Shown here piece after piece: positions 18,267 to 48,325 of a DNA stretch of 48,325 nucleotides. Origin of the DNA: an uncultured Bacilli bacterium (lineage in GTDB: Bacteria; Bacillota_I; Bacilli_A; RF39; UBA660); the NCBI GenBank assembly GCA_944358825.1, contig CALVSA010000006.1, forward strand, positions 1 to 48,325, written 5' to 3'. Below the pieces are notes generated by a model that was not told the DNA's origin, did no database searches, and saw nothing but the letters and a program-made list of their open reading frames with translations. The translations under genes and the position numbers were made by a program. Numbering within the stretch: the stretch's first letter is position 1; each line of letters opens with the position of its first letter.

Positions 18267-20264
18267 CTAATCATCAGAGAAAAAATCATCAAAGAAAGCA
18301 TCATCAGTTGTCTCACTATCATAAGCGTTTTTCTCTTCATAAACTTCTGTATCACGCATTGGATTAGAAACAATACTAGCCTCTTTTTCTCTTTGTTCTT
18401 CAGCTTCTAATTCAGCAATTTTAGCATCAATTCTTCTAACTAAATCATCAACATTAAATCCTTCATTCGCTGCAGGCATCATAGGTGGAACCATAGATGA
18501 AAACATACCTGATCCCATTAGTGGAGCCTCATCATTAGTATCTCCTAAAATTTCAGCCATTTTCTCTTTCTTTTTAGCTTTAACAAATTCTCTTATTTCA
18601 AATAATTTAACTTCTTTCTTCTCACGAACAGGATAAGTAGCCTTCTCATATTTTTTACCCCAATTTATTTCAAAATCAGGTTTAAATTTAGTTTTAAAAG
18701 GCATCTTTCTCATTTTTAAAATAATAATTTCAAACTTACTTAATCTTTGTAAATCACTAACAGTAACCAAAGGTGTAGAAGCAGTTTTATCTTTTTCTTT
18801 AGATTTAACTTCTCCACACATTTTACTTATTTCCTCTAATGCCGCAAGCTCATTACTAATTAAATACATAATATTACAGTTACCTTTAATAGTCTCAGCA
18901 TTTTCCTTACCATAAACCTGAGTCAACTGAGCATAGTTTTGAATGATAAAGTTAAATCTAATATGTCTACTTCTTGCTGCTGTTACCATAGTTGTAACAT
19001 CCTTAAGTGGAGGCATATTAGCAAACTCATCCAAAATAAAGTTAGTACGATATGGTAAATGTCCCCCAGATTCTTGAGCAACATCAATTAAAGTCTCGTA
19101 ACATTGTTTAATAAAAATAGTAGCCAGTGGATGTAATGTCTTCTTCTCATCTTGAACAATCATAAATACTGCTGTTTTTTTCTTACCAATATCACTCATC
19201 TCAAAATCACTATGACTTAACATTTCTGACAAATTATCACGAGACGAAAATAATTTTACTTTTTGTTTAAATGTAGATAAAATACCACCTTTAGTATCTT
19301 CTGGAGCATAAACTGTACCAGAAGCATTTACATATGCAGGACGAGATGGATCTTTCATATTAAAATATTCTTTTATATAATTATTATTCGGTCCGCCAAA
19401 ACGTTCTTCGCCTAAACTAGACATTAAATTCATACTGTTTAAATTTATTTGATCAGCTTCGGCATCTTCAAAAAGTCCAAGCGCTAAACCTGTAAAATAA
19501 TCAGCTCCAGATTTTTCCCAGAACGGATCACTATTGCCACTCTTCTCATCATATAAAATATTAAGAGCTAAATCTTCTAATAATTCAATAGCTTTATCGG
19601 CATTACCTTGTTGATAAAGCTCATAAGGTAAATACATCGGATTCCAAGCATTACCTTTTTGTGGATCACGAAAGTTAAGCAAAATAACATTATAACCTTT
19701 TTCTTTTAACAAATTACCAGTTTCTTCATATAACTCACCCTTAGGATCAGTTACAACCATTGACTCTCCTGCTTTTGCCAAAATTTTAATCATCGGTTTA
19801 GCAACAATAACTGTTTTACCAGAACCAGTCGCACCAACAATTAGACTATGTTCTTCCCCATCATCAACCCACATTTTCTTACCATCACTAATCATTGCTA
19901 TACCTGCATGTTCTATCGTATCAGCACTAGGATCAATTTCTTTTAAAACTTCTTTCATTTCTCTATCTTTACACCATCTAGAATAGCCTTTATCTTTTTT
20001 ACCTGCAACAAAGCCAAACCCTTTTTCACGATCAAAGAAATAAGAACTAACTGCAGTAAAAATACCAACTAACGCTAATATAAATAAAGTTAATGTGGAC
20101 CCAATAAAACGCGGCATAAAAGCTTCAAACGGTAACAAACCATAAAATTCTCCTCTAGTTGCTAACGAATTGGCATTTAAAACGCCAATAGCACACATAT
20201 ATAACAAAAAGAAGCAAAAAACTATAAAAATAGCAACATCTTTAGGCTCCGCTCTAAACTTCAT
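18267..20264 (-). CDS. VirD4/TraG-family coupling ATPase, isolated
   Basis: A type IV secretion coupling-protein relative, the hexameric ATPase that in conjugation brings DNA or proteins to the secretion channel. Two membrane helices (about 9-30 and 55-75) precede the motor domain. Walker A is GATGSGKT at 144-151, followed by VVTDPKGELYEET. The SRDNLSEML region is in the middle, and Walker B FILDEFAN is at 409-416, followed by ARSRHIRFNFIIQNYAQL. The C-terminal tail is coiled and very acidic (FFDDFFSDD end). GGGAGGTG precedes ATG 20264. No relaxase, VirB4, VirB6 or integrase gene is nearby, and codon use looks like the neighbours, so it appears resident and not part of a visible mobile element. 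Confidence 0.9.
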   Translation of the reverse strand: MKFRAEPKDVAIFIVFCFFLLYMCAIGVLNANSLATRGEFYGLLPFEAFMPRFIGSTLTLFILALVGIFTAVSSYFFDREKGFGFVAGKKDKGYSRWCKDREMKEVLKEIDPSADTIEHAGIAMISDGKKMWVDDGEEHSLIVGATGSGKTVIVAKPMIKILAKAGESMVVTDPKGELYEETGNLLKEKGYNVILLNFRDPQKGNAWNPMYLPYELYQQGNADKAIELLEDLALNILYDEKSGNSDPFWEKSGADYFTGLALGLFEDAEADQINLNSMNLMSSLGEERFGGPNNNYIKEYFNMKDPSRPAYVNASGTVYAPEDTKGGILSTFKQKVKLFSSRDNLSEMLSHSDFEMSDIGKKKTAVFMIVQDEKKTLHPLATIFIKQCYETLIDVAQESGGHLPYRTNFILDEFANMPPLKDVTTMVTAARSRHIRFNFIIQNYAQLTQVYGKENAETIKGNCNIMYLISNELAALEEISKMCGEVKSKEKDKTASTPLVTVSDLQRLSKFEIIILKMRKMPFKTKFKPDFEINWGKKYEKATYPVREKKEVKLFEIREFVKAKKKEKMAEILGDTNDEAPLMGSGMFSSMVPPMMPAANEGFNVDDLVRRIDAKIAELEAEEQREKEASIVSNPMRDTEVYEEKNAYDSETTDDAFFDDFFSDD

Positions 20265-21626: not shown

Positions 21627-22508
21627 TTATTCATCTATTTTAACTCCAACAATTTTTAAAATACGATCAAGCATATCATTATCACTATAAAATATCTCGA
21701 TTTTCTTATCAGTAACTTTTACCTTAGTATCAAACTTATCACGAAGTTCTTTTTGAACGTAATAATAACTATCATCAAGTACTTTTTTCTTAATCTCTCT
21801 TTTCTTTTTTATTCCAGGTTCTGTTGCCATTAATTCCAAATCACGAACACTCAAATCATCATTAATTACCCTATTAGCATATTCAATAATTAAATCATCA
21901 TCTTCAAGCTTACTTAAAACTCTAGCATGTCCCATTGAAATTTTATTATCTAAAATCATATTTTGTACTTCTTTAGGCAACCTCAATAAACCTAAAGTAT
22001 TAGTAATATGTGATCTACTTTTACCAAGTTTATGCGCTAAGTCATCTTGTTTAATATTAGAACTATCAATTATATCTTTATAAGCCCACGCAAGTTCAAT
22101 TGCAGTCAAATCTTCTCTTTGTAAATTCTCTAATAAAGCAATCTCTCGCATTTGTTCATCAGTCATATTCTTAACAATCGCGGGTATTGTTTTAAGTCCT
22201 GCTAATTTCGTTGCACGAAGACGTCTTTCACCTGCAATTAAATCGTATCCTTTTATACTTTTCTTTACGATAATTGGTTGAAAAATGCCATAAGTTTTAA
22301 TAGATTGTGCCAATTCGTCTAAAGATTTTTGATCAAAATTTTTACGAGGTTGATATGGATTAGATCTGATCTCATCAACTGATATTTCTTTTATATCACT
22401 TTCATTAGATTCCTCAATAACTTTATTTTCAAATGAATCAAAATCTAATACTTCGTTTGAAAATAACTGTTCTAACCCCCTACCTAACGCCTTTTTCTTC
22501 TGTTCCAT
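21627..22508 (-). CDS. parB: Chromosome-partitioning protein ParB (Spo0J)
   Basis: A CTP-dependent DNA clamp that loads at parS and spreads, organising the origin region. The CTP-binding N-domain has NPYQPRKNF and GERRLRAT (93-100). The DNA-binding helix-turn-helix is DDLAHKLGKSRSHITNTLGLL (about 155-175), followed by SMGHARVL. By my alignment, the Arg in KSR and Gly in MGH are those of ParB; Noc proteins have Gln and Arg there. So this should read parS (TTTCACGTGAAA), which is exactly the motif of the array at 47735. ATG 22508 is 12 bases from GGAGG; TTG 22517 is a possible alternative. It overlaps the end of parA by 29 bases. Confidence 0.95.
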   Translation of the reverse strand: MEQKKKALGRGLEQLFSNEVLDFDSFENKVIEESNESDIKEISVDEIRSNPYQPRKNFDQKSLDELAQSIKTYGIFQPIIVKKSIKGYDLIAGERRLRATKLAGLKTIPAIVKNMTDEQMREIALLENLQREDLTAIELAWAYKDIIDSSNIKQDDLAHKLGKSRSHITNTLGLLRLPKEVQNMILDNKISMGHARVLSKLEDDDLIIEYANRVINDDLSVRDLELMATEPGIKKKREIKKKVLDDSYYYVQKELRDKFDTKVKVTDKKIEIFYSDNDMLDRILKIVGVKIDE

Positions 22509-23295
22509 TACGTTCAATTACCTCCTTTGCTAAATTTAAATATGCCAAAGTTCCTCTACTTCTTGGCTCGTATTCTAAAATTGGTTTCCCATGTGATGGT
22601 GCTTCTGCTAATCTAATTAATCTTGGAATAATTGTCTCATATACTCTTTCTTTAAAGAAGTTGCGAATACTCTCAATTACTTCTAATCCTAAATTTGTAT
22701 TTGCAGTTAACATTGTAAGTAATACTCCTTCAATATCCAAATTAGGATTTACTTTCTTTTGAGCAAGCATAATTGTATTTATAAGTTGCATAATTCCTTC
22801 TAAAGCAAAATATTCACATTGCACCGGTATTAAAACAGAATCAGCAGCCGCTAATGCATTGGTTGTTAATATTCCTAAAGATGGCGGACAATCAATAATA
22901 ATATAATCAAATTTATCCTTTACTTTATATAATTCTTCTTTTAATCTTGAAATACGACTAAAACTTTCGTTTTTTTCTTTATGCGACCTTTCTAACTCAA
23001 TTAATTCCATATCAACACCAGCTAAATTTAAATATGCAGGTATCAAATATAAATTTTTACTTTTCGTCTTAATAATCGCTTTGTCAATTTCCTCTTTTTC
23101 AACCATAACTTCATAAATACTAGTCTTAATATCTCCTCTTTCCATTCCAACTCCAGTAGTGGCATTTCCTTGAGGATCTAAATCTACTAGTAATACTTTT
23201 TTATTCAAAATTCCTAAAGATGCAGATAAATTAATACTAGTTGTAGTTTTTCCTACTCCACCTTTTTGATTAACAATTGCAATTATTTTTCCCAT
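22480..23295 (-). CDS. parA: Chromosome-partitioning ATPase ParA (Soj)
   Basis: A deviant Walker-type ATPase that forms ATP-bound dimers on the nucleoid and moves ParB-bound origins; in Bacillus it also regulates DnaA. The P-loop KGGVGKTTTS is at 11-20 with the signature lysine. Switch I and II show DLDPQGNATTG and YIIIDCPPSLG. The length of 271 residues without an N-terminal extension marks the chromosomal type, not the plasmid SopA type. AAGGTGA precedes ATG 23295. It is the first gene of the parA-parB operon, with promoter TTGATA-17-TACAAT. Confidence 0.96.
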   Translation of the reverse strand: MGKIIAIVNQKGGVGKTTTSINLSASLGILNKKVLLVDLDPQGNATTGVGMERGDIKTSIYEVMVEKEEIDKAIIKTKSKNLYLIPAYLNLAGVDMELIELERSHKEKNESFSRISRLKEELYKVKDKFDYIIIDCPPSLGILTTNALAAADSVLIPVQCEYFALEGIMQLINTIMLAQKKVNPNLDIEGVLLTMLTANTNLGLEVIESIRNFFKERVYETIIPRLIRLAEAPSHGKPILEYEPRSRGTLAYLNLAKEVIERNGTEEKGVR

Positions 23296-45164: not shown

Positions 45165-46829
45165 TTATCTATATTCTATTATATCTTCTCCAAATAATTC
45201 AACTAATTTATCTACAGGAGAATCATTTTTTTTATTTTCATTATTATTTGCAATATTTTTTTCTTCTTTTAAAGAATACTTAATACCTTTTTTTAAATTA
45301 CTTACATAATTATTTCTCTCTTTATTCCAACGCTCAACAGAAATAGAAACCACTTTATATTTATTATGATAGATTTCAAATAATAAATTAGATATCTCAT
45401 CAGAAAGCTCATTCAAACGAAACGAAGTAGCTTCATACTTACATTCTAAAATTATATATTCAACAGATGCCACAACCGGAATAACATCAGAAAGAAGTCC
45501 TGCAATTACATTAAATCGATCATCTAATAAATAATCAGAAATCTTACTCCAACTACTTTTAATATCATTTAAAATAGATTTTTCTGCAGTAGCTAAAGCA
45601 TTATTAATTCTAACCTCAACATCTATTAATACATTATAATTAACCTTTTTTTCCTGATTCACAACTTTTTCTACTTTTTTAACTTTATTTTCTTCTTCAA
45701 CAACTTCTTCTTTTTTTATTATTTCCTGGGAAATATTCTCTGTATTATTATTATCACTATTATTAAAAGAACTAATTTTTAACAATGTAACAATTAACAA
45801 AATAGCAGGATAACTAGCAAGTTTTATTTTAGATAATAGTTCATTAAGTTCTTCTATATAGTAAAATATTGTACTATCGTCCAAATAATTAGATATTTTT
45901 TCAATTTTATCATTCTTATCCCCTATTTTAGACATAACATTACTATTTTTAAATATTAAAACATCTTTTAAAAATATAATAATTTCCTCGACAAATTTAT
46001 TAATGTTTTTCCCATTCTTATCGATATTTTCAACAAAAGCAATAATTTCTTTATTATTTTTATCAATAACAAATTTTAAAACTTCATACAACTCATCATA
46101 AGAAACAGAACCATTAATTTTAAAAACGTCTGAAATATTAATCTTTCCACTCTCATAAGCAGTTAACTGATCTAATAAATTAATTGCATCCCTTAATCCT
46201 CCATCTGCAAGACGAGCAATTTCGTAGAGTGCATCCTCTTCTATTTCAATTTCTTCCATTTCACTAATTTTTTTAAGTCTATCAACAATTGCTACATCAT
46301 CTATTTTAGTAAATTGAAATTTCTGACATCTAGAAGAAATAGTAAGCGGAATCTTATAAAATTCAGTAGTTGCTAAAATAAAAATAACATGAGATGGTGG
46401 TTCCTCCAAAGTTTTTAACAAAGCATTAAAAGCTTGAGTAGTCAACATATGAACTTCATCGATAATATAAACCTTGTATTTACAACTACTAGGAACAAAA
46501 TTAACTTTATCACGTATTTCTCTAATTTCTTCAATACCATTATTACTAGCAGCATCTATTTCAACAACATCATTACTATTTAAAATATTCAAACAACTAT
46601 CGCAATTATTACAAGGTTTACCATCAATTAAATGCTCACAATTAACCATTTTAGCAATTATTTTAGCAGTCGTGGTTTTACCAGTACCTCTAGGACCAGA
46701 AAATAAATACGCATGCGATACTTTATTATTAACAATAGCATTACTAATTACCTTAATAATCTTTTCTTGTCCGACAACATCTTCAAAAGAATCAGGTCGA
46801 TATTTTCTATATAAAGCTAAATATCCCAT
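45165..46829 (-). CDS. dnaX: DNA polymerase III gamma/tau subunit DnaX
   Basis: The clamp-loader motor. ATG 46829 with GTGGGGTGAA upstream gives the family N-terminus GYLALYRKYRPDSFEDVVGQ; the longer open frame is not translated. Walker A is FSGPRGTGKTTTAK, the zinc module is CEHLIDGKPCNNCDSC, Walker B is VYIIDEVHMLTTQAFNAL, and the SRC finger is ISSRCQKFQF. After residue 370 comes a low-complexity Lys/Glu/Asn-rich stretch and a tau-like C-terminal domain, so 554 residues represent the tau form. A one-mismatch Noc-type site lies in the low-complexity region (45721). Usual cluster with ebfC and recR. Confidence 0.97.
   Translation of the reverse strand: MGYLALYRKYRPDSFEDVVGQEKIIKVISNAIVNNKVSHAYLFSGPRGTGKTTTAKIIAKMVNCEHLIDGKPCNNCDSCLNILNSNDVVEIDAASNNGIEEIREIRDKVNFVPSSCKYKVYIIDEVHMLTTQAFNALLKTLEEPPSHVIFILATTEFYKIPLTISSRCQKFQFTKIDDVAIVDRLKKISEMEEIEIEEDALYEIARLADGGLRDAINLLDQLTAYESGKINISDVFKINGSVSYDELYEVLKFVIDKNNKEIIAFVENIDKNGKNINKFVEEIIIFLKDVLIFKNSNVMSKIGDKNDKIEKISNYLDDSTIFYYIEELNELLSKIKLASYPAILLIVTLLKISSFNNSDNNNTENISQEIIKKEEVVEEENKVKKVEKVVNQEKKVNYNVLIDVEVRINNALATAEKSILNDIKSSWSKISDYLLDDRFNVIAGLLSDVIPVVASVEYIILECKYEATSFRLNELSDEISNLLFEIYHNKYKVVSISVERWNKERNNYVSNLKKGIKYSLKEEKNIANNNENKKNDSPVDKLVELFGEDIIEYR
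45721..45734. promoter_or_regulatory. Degenerate Noc-type palindrome inside dnaX
   Basis: ATTTCCTGGGAAAT differs from the Noc consensus ATTTCCCGGGAAAT at one position. It may be a weak site or chance. Confidence 0.3.
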
Positions 46830-47006
46830 ATTGTATTCACCCCACAAACATATTATAACATAGCAAAAACGCTTTATCAACAAAAAGCTTTTATATTTCA
46901 ACACTTTATTTACAGCAATTTTTTGTATTAATTTTTAATTTTTTTATTTAAATTTAAAATTTTCTTTTTTATTTTGGATTTTTAAGACAAAAAAATAAGA
47001 CAAATT

Positions 47007-47020
47007 ATTTCCCGGGAAAT
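47007..47020. promoter_or_regulatory. Noc-binding site NBS-1 downstream of tadA
   Basis: A perfect ATTTCCCGGGAAAT, the nucleoid-occlusion Noc site of B. subtilis. It lies three bases beyond the tadA stop in the 193-base gap before dnaX. That gap otherwise holds AT-rich sequence with no gene visible. Confidence 0.8.
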
Positions 47021-47022
47021 AT

Positions 47023-47433
47023 TCATCTTCTATTTTCAAAAAAAACTTGCAATAATTCCAAACATTCATCCTTCTTAATACCATTAACTACCTCAAAATT
47101 ATTTCCCGGGAAATAATTACCAACTTTTTTAACTCCATAAACAAGTCTAGAAATTCTACTCTCCATAATAGCTCCCATACACATCATACAAGGCTCAAAA
47201 GTAGTATAAATACAACAACCATCTAATCTCCAACTATCTAATTTTCTACAAGCTTCCTCAATAGCAATAATTTCAGCATGTCTAGTAACATTTTTATCAT
47301 TTTCACGTCTATTATAAGCTTTAGAAATAACAATACCATCTTTAACAACAATAGCTCCTACTGGAACTTCATTTAAAGCATAAGCAATTTTAGCCTGTTC
47401 AAGAGCAATATCCATATATTCTACATCATCCAT
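47023..47433 (-). CDS. tadA: tRNA(adenine34) deaminase TadA
   Basis: It deaminates A34 to inosine in tRNA-Arg(ACG), acting as a zinc dimer. VPVGAIVVKDG, the HAE motif in TRHAEIIAIEEA, and the EPCMMCMGAI zinc motif are intact. The C-terminal part is shortened: after LVYGVKK the usual GAxGSxxNLLxxxxxNH loop is replaced by VGNYFPGNNFEVVNGI, about 12 residues shorter. The bases coding NYFPGNN are a perfect Noc-site palindrome. ATG 47433 with GAGGTGTTG upstream gives 136 residues. In Bacillus the SRP RNA lies after tadA; here it lies before it. Confidence 0.95.
   Translation of the reverse strand: MDDVEYMDIALEQAKIAYALNEVPVGAIVVKDGIVISKAYNRRENDKNVTRHAEIIAIEEACRKLDSWRLDGCCIYTTFEPCMMCMGAIMESRISRLVYGVKKVGNYFPGNNFEVVNGIKKDECLELLQVFFENRR
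47097..47118. promoter_or_regulatory. Noc-binding site NBS-2 inside tadA
   Basis: Core ATTTCCCGGGAAAT at 47101-47114 sits at the centre of a 22-bp perfect palindrome. It is within the tadA reading frame, coding for NYFPGNN. Confidence 0.8.
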
Positions 47434-47450
47434 AAACAACACCTCATCAA

Positions 47451-47472
47451 AAATATTTCCCGGGAAATATTT
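47451..47472. promoter_or_regulatory. Noc-binding site NBS-3 upstream of tadA
   Basis: Core ATTTCCCGGGAAAT at 47455-47468 inside a 22-bp perfect palindrome, in the 93-base gap between the SRP RNA and the tadA start. Confidence 0.8.
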
Positions 47473-47526
47473 TTATATAATCTTCGTATATCAACAATTA
47501 TTATTAATTAACTATAAATAATTAAA

Positions 47527-47603
47527 AAAAGACACACACAATAAGTGATTGTTAGAGCTGCTGTCTTCCAACCCTGACTCGGTTCCAATATTATTGTTGT
47601 GCC
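47527..47603 (-). ncRNA. ffs: Small signal recognition particle RNA (4.5S-type)
   Basis: The minus strand holds the SRP domain IV signature: GTCAGG, a GGAA tetraloop region (GTTGGAAGAC), then AGCAGC. The 5' end GGCACAACAATAA pairs with TTATTGTGTGTC at the 3' end (one bulged A), closing a long hairpin of about 70 bases. A T-run follows as terminator (47533-47526). A good promoter ends seven bases before the predicted 5' end. The RNA lacks an Alu domain, unlike the larger Bacillus scRNA, and looks like the minimal 4.5S type. It binds Ffh for cotranslational targeting. Location next to tadA and dnaX supports the call. Confidence 0.88.
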
Positions 47604-47609
47604 ACATAT

Positions 47610-47638
47610 AATATATTATATTTTGTCAGAAAAATCAA
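47610..47638 (-). promoter_or_regulatory. Promoter of the SRP RNA
   Basis: -35 TTGATT (47638-47633), 17-base spacer, -10 TATATT (47615-47610), predicted start at about 47603. Confidence 0.65.
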
Positions 47639-47731: not shown

Positions 47732-48325
47732 CTATGTTTCACGTGAAACATAGCTATCTATATATAATTTTATTTAAGGTTTCACGTGAAACATAGATAT
47801 TAATATATAATTATATTTAAGGTTTCACGTGAAACATAGCTAATAATATATATTTTTATTCAAGGTTTCACGTGAAACATAGCTATCTATATATAATTTT
47901 ATTTAAGGTTTCACGTGGAACATAGCATCTATATATAATTTTATTTAAAGTTTCACGTGGAACATAGCTATCTATATATAATTTTATTTAAAGTTTCACG
48001 TGGAACATAGCTATCTATATATAATTTTATTTAAAGTTTCACGTGAAACATAGATATTAATATATAATTTTATTTAAGGTTTCACGTGGAACATAGATAT
48101 CTATATATTTTTTTATTCAAGGTTTCACGTGAAACATAGATATCTATATATTTTTTTTATTCAAGGTTTCACGTGAAACATAGATATCTATATATAATTT
48201 TATTCAAGGTTTCACGTGAAACATAGATATTAATATATAATTTTATTTAAGGTTTCACGTGAAACATAGATATTAATATATAATTTTATTTAAGGTTTCA
48301 CGTGAAACATAGATATTAATATATA
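47732..48325. repeat. Tandem parS array (ParB centromere), at least 14 sites, open at the window edge
   Basis: Fourteen 16-bp parS motifs start at 47735, 47778, 47821, 47864, 47907, 47949, 47992, 48035, 48078, 48121, 48165, 48208, 48251 and 48294. Spacing is 43 bp except one 42 and one 44. The first is the perfect palindrome TGTTTCACGTGAAACA; others begin GG or AG. Sites 5, 6, 7 and 9 end GTGGAACA, the asymmetric form known from Bacillus (TGTTCCACGTGAAACA). Spacers are AT-rich and repeat with small changes (TATCTATATATAATTTTATT). The last unit continues to 48325, so the true number is higher. This is the predicted loading site for the ParB encoded at 21627. No gene is seen in it. Confidence 0.95.

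Follow-up and report, generated by a model that had tools for sequence, protein, structure and literature searches.

In Bacillus subtilis, the first ten residues of Noc form an amphipathic helix which is required for both membrane binding and function (PMC4331003; PMC8429893), and an N-terminal helix of this kind was predicted for all the Noc homologues that had been examined by then (PMC4331003). CTP clamping and sliding of Noc are triggered by the Noc-binding site (NBS) (PMC8429893), and the protein spreads over 8-10 kb (PMC5540599). The residues specific for NBS are Q173, K179, K184 and R201 in the numbering of Caulobacter ParB, one permissive lysine being reported as sufficient (PMC7383237). 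Together with Spo0J, Noc keeps B. subtilis from forming Z rings at midcell too early (PMC6852036). In the accepted model, Noc depends on dispersed sites as well as on the N-terminal membrane helix, whereas the family described here retains the DNA specificity without either of them. A literature search for RF39 in combination with nucleoid occlusion found nothing.

The window is the whole stretch of 48,325 nucleotides that was analysed, contig C6 of a genome (G000) of 1.266 Mb in 53 contigs, which is 91% complete. Exact copies of ATTTCCCGGGAAAT were identified at 47007-47020, 47101-47114 and 47455-47468, and no further exact copy was present in the window, just as the original prediction had described (Table 1). 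Read off the sequence, the perfect palindromes of the copies measure 16 bp at 47007, 22 bp at 47101 and 26 bp at 47455, and the statement that two of the sites stand within 22-bp palindromes therefore holds. The cluster was also said to lie near a ParB centromere, and the distance from the last NBS to the start of the parS array is indeed about 266 bp. In addition, the complement of TTGTTGATA was seen near the NBS at 47455 (window 47489), and three of the four NBS units repeated in tandem on the facing contig carried one copy each of TTGTTGATA in their spacers (L005 18209, 18284 and 18358); it could be an unknown third element or the relic of a repeat.

Table 1. Inferred Noc-binding sites and neighbouring features of the window
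Feature	Position	Strand	Remarks
Noc-binding site, 16-bp NBS TATTTCCCGGGAAATA (inferred)	47006..47021		Between the tadA 3' end and dnaX; exact match
Noc-binding site (inferred)	47100..47115		Within the tadA CDS (translated ...NYFPGN...); 22-bp palindrome
Noc-binding site (inferred)	47454..47469		Immediately 5' of tadA, closest to the parS array; 26-bp palindrome
1-mismatch Noc-binding site ATTTCCTGGGAAAT (inferred)	45720..45735		Within dnaX; match at 45721
parS array, 43-bp period	47736..48325		14 copies, reaching the contig end
Bacterial small SRP RNA gene	47516..47613	-	Rfam RF00169, 58.9 bits; between the parS array and tadA
tadA (tRNA adenosine deaminase)	47023..47442	-	ORF; gene order kept in relatives
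dnaX	45165..46904	-	ORF
parB (Spo0J type)	21627..22517	-	LGRGL ParA-binding motif; specificity residues R/T/R/G
parA	22480..23295	-	ORF; orthologue matches in relatives

In the whole genome, ATTTCCCGGGAAAT occurred eight times, three times in the window and five times on contig C9, while the reversed control pattern did not occur and 100 dinucleotide shuffles of the window gave a mean of 0.00 copies, which excludes a chance frequency of the motif. The gene order on C9 is dnaA-dnaN-recF-gyrB-gyrA, followed by four NBS at a spacing of 74-75 bp and then by a parS array; the fifth NBS overlaps the stop codon of recF, ahead of gyrB. C9 ends in 12-13 further copies of the same 43-bp parS repeat (L005 18508-19044), and the assembly does not bridge the stretch of array that separates C6 from C9. 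In relatives gyrA-(parS/NBS)-tadA is contiguous, so the ends of the window and of C9 very probably flank a single centromere with its array unassembled. Because NBS continue past the contig break, the cluster is bigger than originally described. The scan of all sites in the genome, which the original prediction had asked for, thus revealed strong enrichment, with the full complement of sites in the origin block. The claim of a local cluster was right in that the cluster exists, but it is not local; it represents the set of the whole genome, and the trait is family-wide. The enriched motif adjoins the parS array, which agrees with the idea that two ParB-family clamps are loaded from sites at a single locus, binding being inferred.

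The parS tandem array itself, with at least 14 plus 12 copies split by the assembly gap, is an unusually large and regular centromere. A de novo k-mer search for a third conserved element in 61 gyrA-tadA intergenic regions gave mostly SRP-RNA-like words. Near parAB, an ORF at 18267-20264 resembles, by eye, a coupling protein of the VirD4/TraG type, which suggests a conjugative or integrated element beside the partition genes.

The sole parB of the window reads as a ParB, with Spo0J as its best match and with the residues and ParA-binding motif listed in Table 1. The noc gene, which had been predicted to exist elsewhere, was found on the minus strand of C9 (15461-16699) with the specificity residues Q/K/R, and these two gene products are the only ParB_N proteins in the genome. 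The best family of the C9 protein was TIGR04285 with 293 bits, under the curated cut-off of 315 bits, and its best PDB match was Geobacillus Noc (7ng0/7nfu, 1e-57). CTP motifs and a C-terminal dimerisation domain were both present, which satisfies the criteria of the ParB/Noc fold. Of the ParB/Spo0J traits, neither R173/G201 nor LGRGL was found in this protein, which has Q and R at the two positions and no LGRGL. The neighbourhood mnmE-mnmG-rsmG-noc is kept as in Bacillus, with two genes intervening here between rsmG and noc; these two (L008 11793-13730) are paralogues, each encoding a small protein that has a hydrophobic segment at its N-terminus. Across the family, Q, K and R occupied three of the four specificity positions in all 38 Noc proteins, while position 184 (K184) was N, S or T in nearly all of them. 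The CTP-binding motifs GERR and ENxQR were observed in 38 and 37 of the 38, respectively.

The N-terminal amphipathic membrane helix was absent in the Noc of G000 and in 37 relatives (38 of the 38 sequences read), and the DNA-membrane linking role ascribed to Noc in the original prediction is therefore doubtful here. In G000, 16 residues of Noc precede the PNRFQPR block, with a ribosome-binding-site-like GAGGG preceding the ATG and an in-frame stop 19 codons upstream; in all 38 proteins the start lies 15-24 residues before this block. In the AlphaFold model the first strand begins at residue 7, and the NTD with the DBD (about residues 5-205) and the CTD (about 370-412) are confident, with an unstructured stretch between them. 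The length of this disordered linker ranged from 78 to 367 residues across the 38 members. Since the usual N-terminal anchor is missing, the complex would most likely act through the long disordered linker. A linker motif of the KFFNFLE type, FF[NSTD][FILMS], was found in 18 of the 38 Noc proteins (L030, L048 and L068, for example) against a shuffle mean of 1.4, and a KFFNFLE-like motif was absent from the Noc of G000. The motif is a candidate for a partner- or membrane-binding element, and a relocated anchor or partner motif somewhere within the linker cannot be excluded in general. Outside the family, three further families sampled in the class (f8, f12 and f18; L168, L165 and L167) also seem to have a helix-less Noc, while other sampled families keep short N-termini such as MFNLFTRD and MGLFDFLG. 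The loss of the anchor may have occurred more than once.

NBS were present in all seven searched genomes of the genus. In the family, exact NBS were identified in 85 of 98 genomes (97 genera) and were missing from the other 13, with no match of the reversed control in any genome. A total of 222 exact NBS were mapped in 87 genomes, the map omitting part of the NBS of G028 and the sites of some low-completeness genomes; 219 of them were located no more than 5 kb from an origin-block gene. Among the 200 NBS with gyrA or tadA on the same contig, 198 were within 20 kb of it, at a median of 815 bp, and 22 mapped NBS of relatives were located between the 5' part of dnaX and ybaB. Genomes entered the map for having a site, which biases the fraction upward, though just 13 of the 98 genomes of the family were without one, and common ancestry also inflates the count. 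The next positions on the two sides were T and A in 98% of cases, which gives the 16-bp NBS of structural work. The exact 16-mer was nearly absent from the class outside the family (2 of about 130 genomes), where several families have a Noc. One of these two genomes, from another family of the class (G153:C1, L187), had its three exact NBS spread over less than 9 kb around parAB-noc-mnmG, close to dnaA, and its Noc is long (an open frame of 681 codons), so origin-side clustering of NBS is seen outside the family too.

It is quite probable that the locus belongs to a variant of the Noc/NBS system that is confined to the origin and shares its centromere with ParB; binding, ChIP and localisation data do not exist. 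That the sites are loading sites of Noc is a well supported inference. According to the proposed mechanism, the NBS of the window would load a CTPase clamp of the Noc family, whose gene lies on C9, on the far side of the parS array and about 26 kb away from it. Noc would bind NBS, close as a clamp and slide over the dnaA-gyrA-tadA-dnaX region (both binding and sliding are inferred), ParB would do likewise from the adjacent parS array, and the two proteins would form one nucleoprotein complex at the centromere and origin. The most likely task of this complex would be to flag the origins to the division apparatus, as an origin-only form of nucleoid occlusion in the absence of a detectable MinC. 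The C-terminal domain of MinC (MinC_C) was found in none of 39 family genomes, with controls positive in 6 of 14, and this result, taken with the joint effect of Noc and Spo0J on Z rings in B. subtilis, makes origin-only division control the leading guess. Taken by itself, the division task can only be put forward tentatively, an inhibition of Z rings being inferred, and what the complex does at the origin is not derivable from sequence. There is about an even chance that the origin carries a bipartite centromere, at which ParB and an anchor-less Noc, two CTP-gated clamps loaded from neighbouring or alternating sites of the origin array, act jointly, with Noc working through its linker as an origin-marking or segregation/replication factor. 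If so, Noc is not a dispersed tether between DNA and membrane. Replication control and, separately, segregation by a two-clamp centromere are close rivals of the division reading, and they are inseparable by sequence alone.

Noc at the origin could mainly control replication initiation, with clamps that load at the NBS next to gyrB/gyrA and close to dnaA, spread over the dnaA region and restrain its firing. Initiation is restricted by Noc in Staphylococcus aureus, where the protein also acts in nucleoid occlusion (PMC5540599). Only a few kb separate NBS from dnaA here, and three genomes have an NBS immediately 5' of it. Confinement to the origin would suit a role in replication more than classical occlusion. 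However, the densest NBS stand together with parS on the gyrA-tadA side, several kb from dnaA and outside the dnaA-dnaN region, and this explanation is considered rather unlikely.

Tandem units in which NBS and parS alternate were observed in four genera. The period of the unit was 79 bp in G028 (at least 12 units), about 125 bp in G059 and 66 bp in G010, and the offset between NBS and parS was fixed at about 35 bp in G064. The sequences of the units look unrelated except for the NBS and parS themselves, which points to repeated independent evolution of the combined units. These arrays, and the 82 of 198 NBS that have a parS no more than 100 bp away, would be expected if Noc were a second centromere clamp for segregation or condensation of the origin, with its division control lost, perhaps aiding SMC loading or ParB condensation (interaction with SMC is untested). 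The loss of the helix, without which occlusion fails in B. subtilis (PMC4331003), also fits. Noc is, however, without the LGRGL ParA-binding N-terminus seen in the ParB of the window, and many NBS lie in genes, several kb from any parS, so a pure segregation role is possible and yet somewhat improbable.

Degenerate NBS were counted through mismatch searches, without a weight matrix. When up to two mismatches were allowed, nine copies were found, all in the origin block, the dnaX copy being the only addition; no two-mismatch NBS was found outside the origin block in this search of the whole genome. When up to three mismatches to the 16-mer were allowed, the total was 13 (four added) versus six for the reversed control. 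Hits elsewhere were thus only at background level, and nothing points to a dispersed set of NBS that escaped detection. Classical dispersed occlusion, in which the remaining NBS would be too degenerate to see and the cluster would be just the best-matching part, takes its support from B. subtilis and S. aureus, whose NBS are scattered over the chromosome apart from the terminus region (PMC7383237, PMC5540599), but the result of the mismatch searches and the equal confinement of exact sites across 87 genomes make it very improbable.

For rsmI, 19 sequences had the peptide ISREI spelled ATT TCC CGG GAA ATA (for example L088 7006 and L103 6984), while TCC accounted for 3.7% of Ser codons and CGG for 1.8% of Arg codons. 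Such rare codons are a sign of selection on the DNA inside the gene. The rsmI of G000 (window 41020) had ISREI with common codons, and NBS was absent from it. CCCGGG is a common restriction site, and some copies of the motif stand 5' of genes. Nevertheless, it is scarcely credible that the motif is a restriction or methylation target, a transcription-factor site or a product of chance, and these readings were rejected, since copies lie in coding sequences with rare codons, their position in rsmI is conserved, they form tandem arrays with parS, and the 16-mer is the NBS consensus of Noc structures (PMC7383237), co-occurring with a Noc that has the matching specificity residues.

An origin-confined Noc sharing the centromere with ParB would offer a natural separation of function, for asking which function Noc has at the origin, and whether ParB and Noc clamps interact at all when they are loaded side by side. 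It also gives a lead on the placement of division in reduced genomes without a detected MinC.

Compared with the Noc/NBS system of B. subtilis, the 16-bp NBS consensus TATTTCCC-GGGAAATA is identical, and Noc is likewise a ParB paralogue with Q/K/R residues, CTP motifs, the C-terminal domain and the mnmE-mnmG-rsmG-noc neighbourhood. Unlike in B. subtilis, where sites are dispersed, all sites are within the origin block, and the NBS of the family adjoin parS or interleave with it in tandem arrays. Noc of the family is also different in having no N-terminal amphipathic helix and a linker of 78-367 residues, with no MinC detected. With Noc of S. aureus it shares the origin-proximal bias and a possible tie to replication initiation, whereas 41 ChIP loci were reported there, almost all distributed across +/-700 kb (PMC5540599); the sites here number 8-9 and are confined to the origin block. 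The system resembles ParB-parS (Spo0J/parS) in its place beside the origin and in the tandem units held in common with parS in several relatives, and it differs in the DNA sequence recognized, in the residues Q/K/N/R of Noc against R/T/R/G of the window ParB, and in a Noc without the ParA-binding motif.
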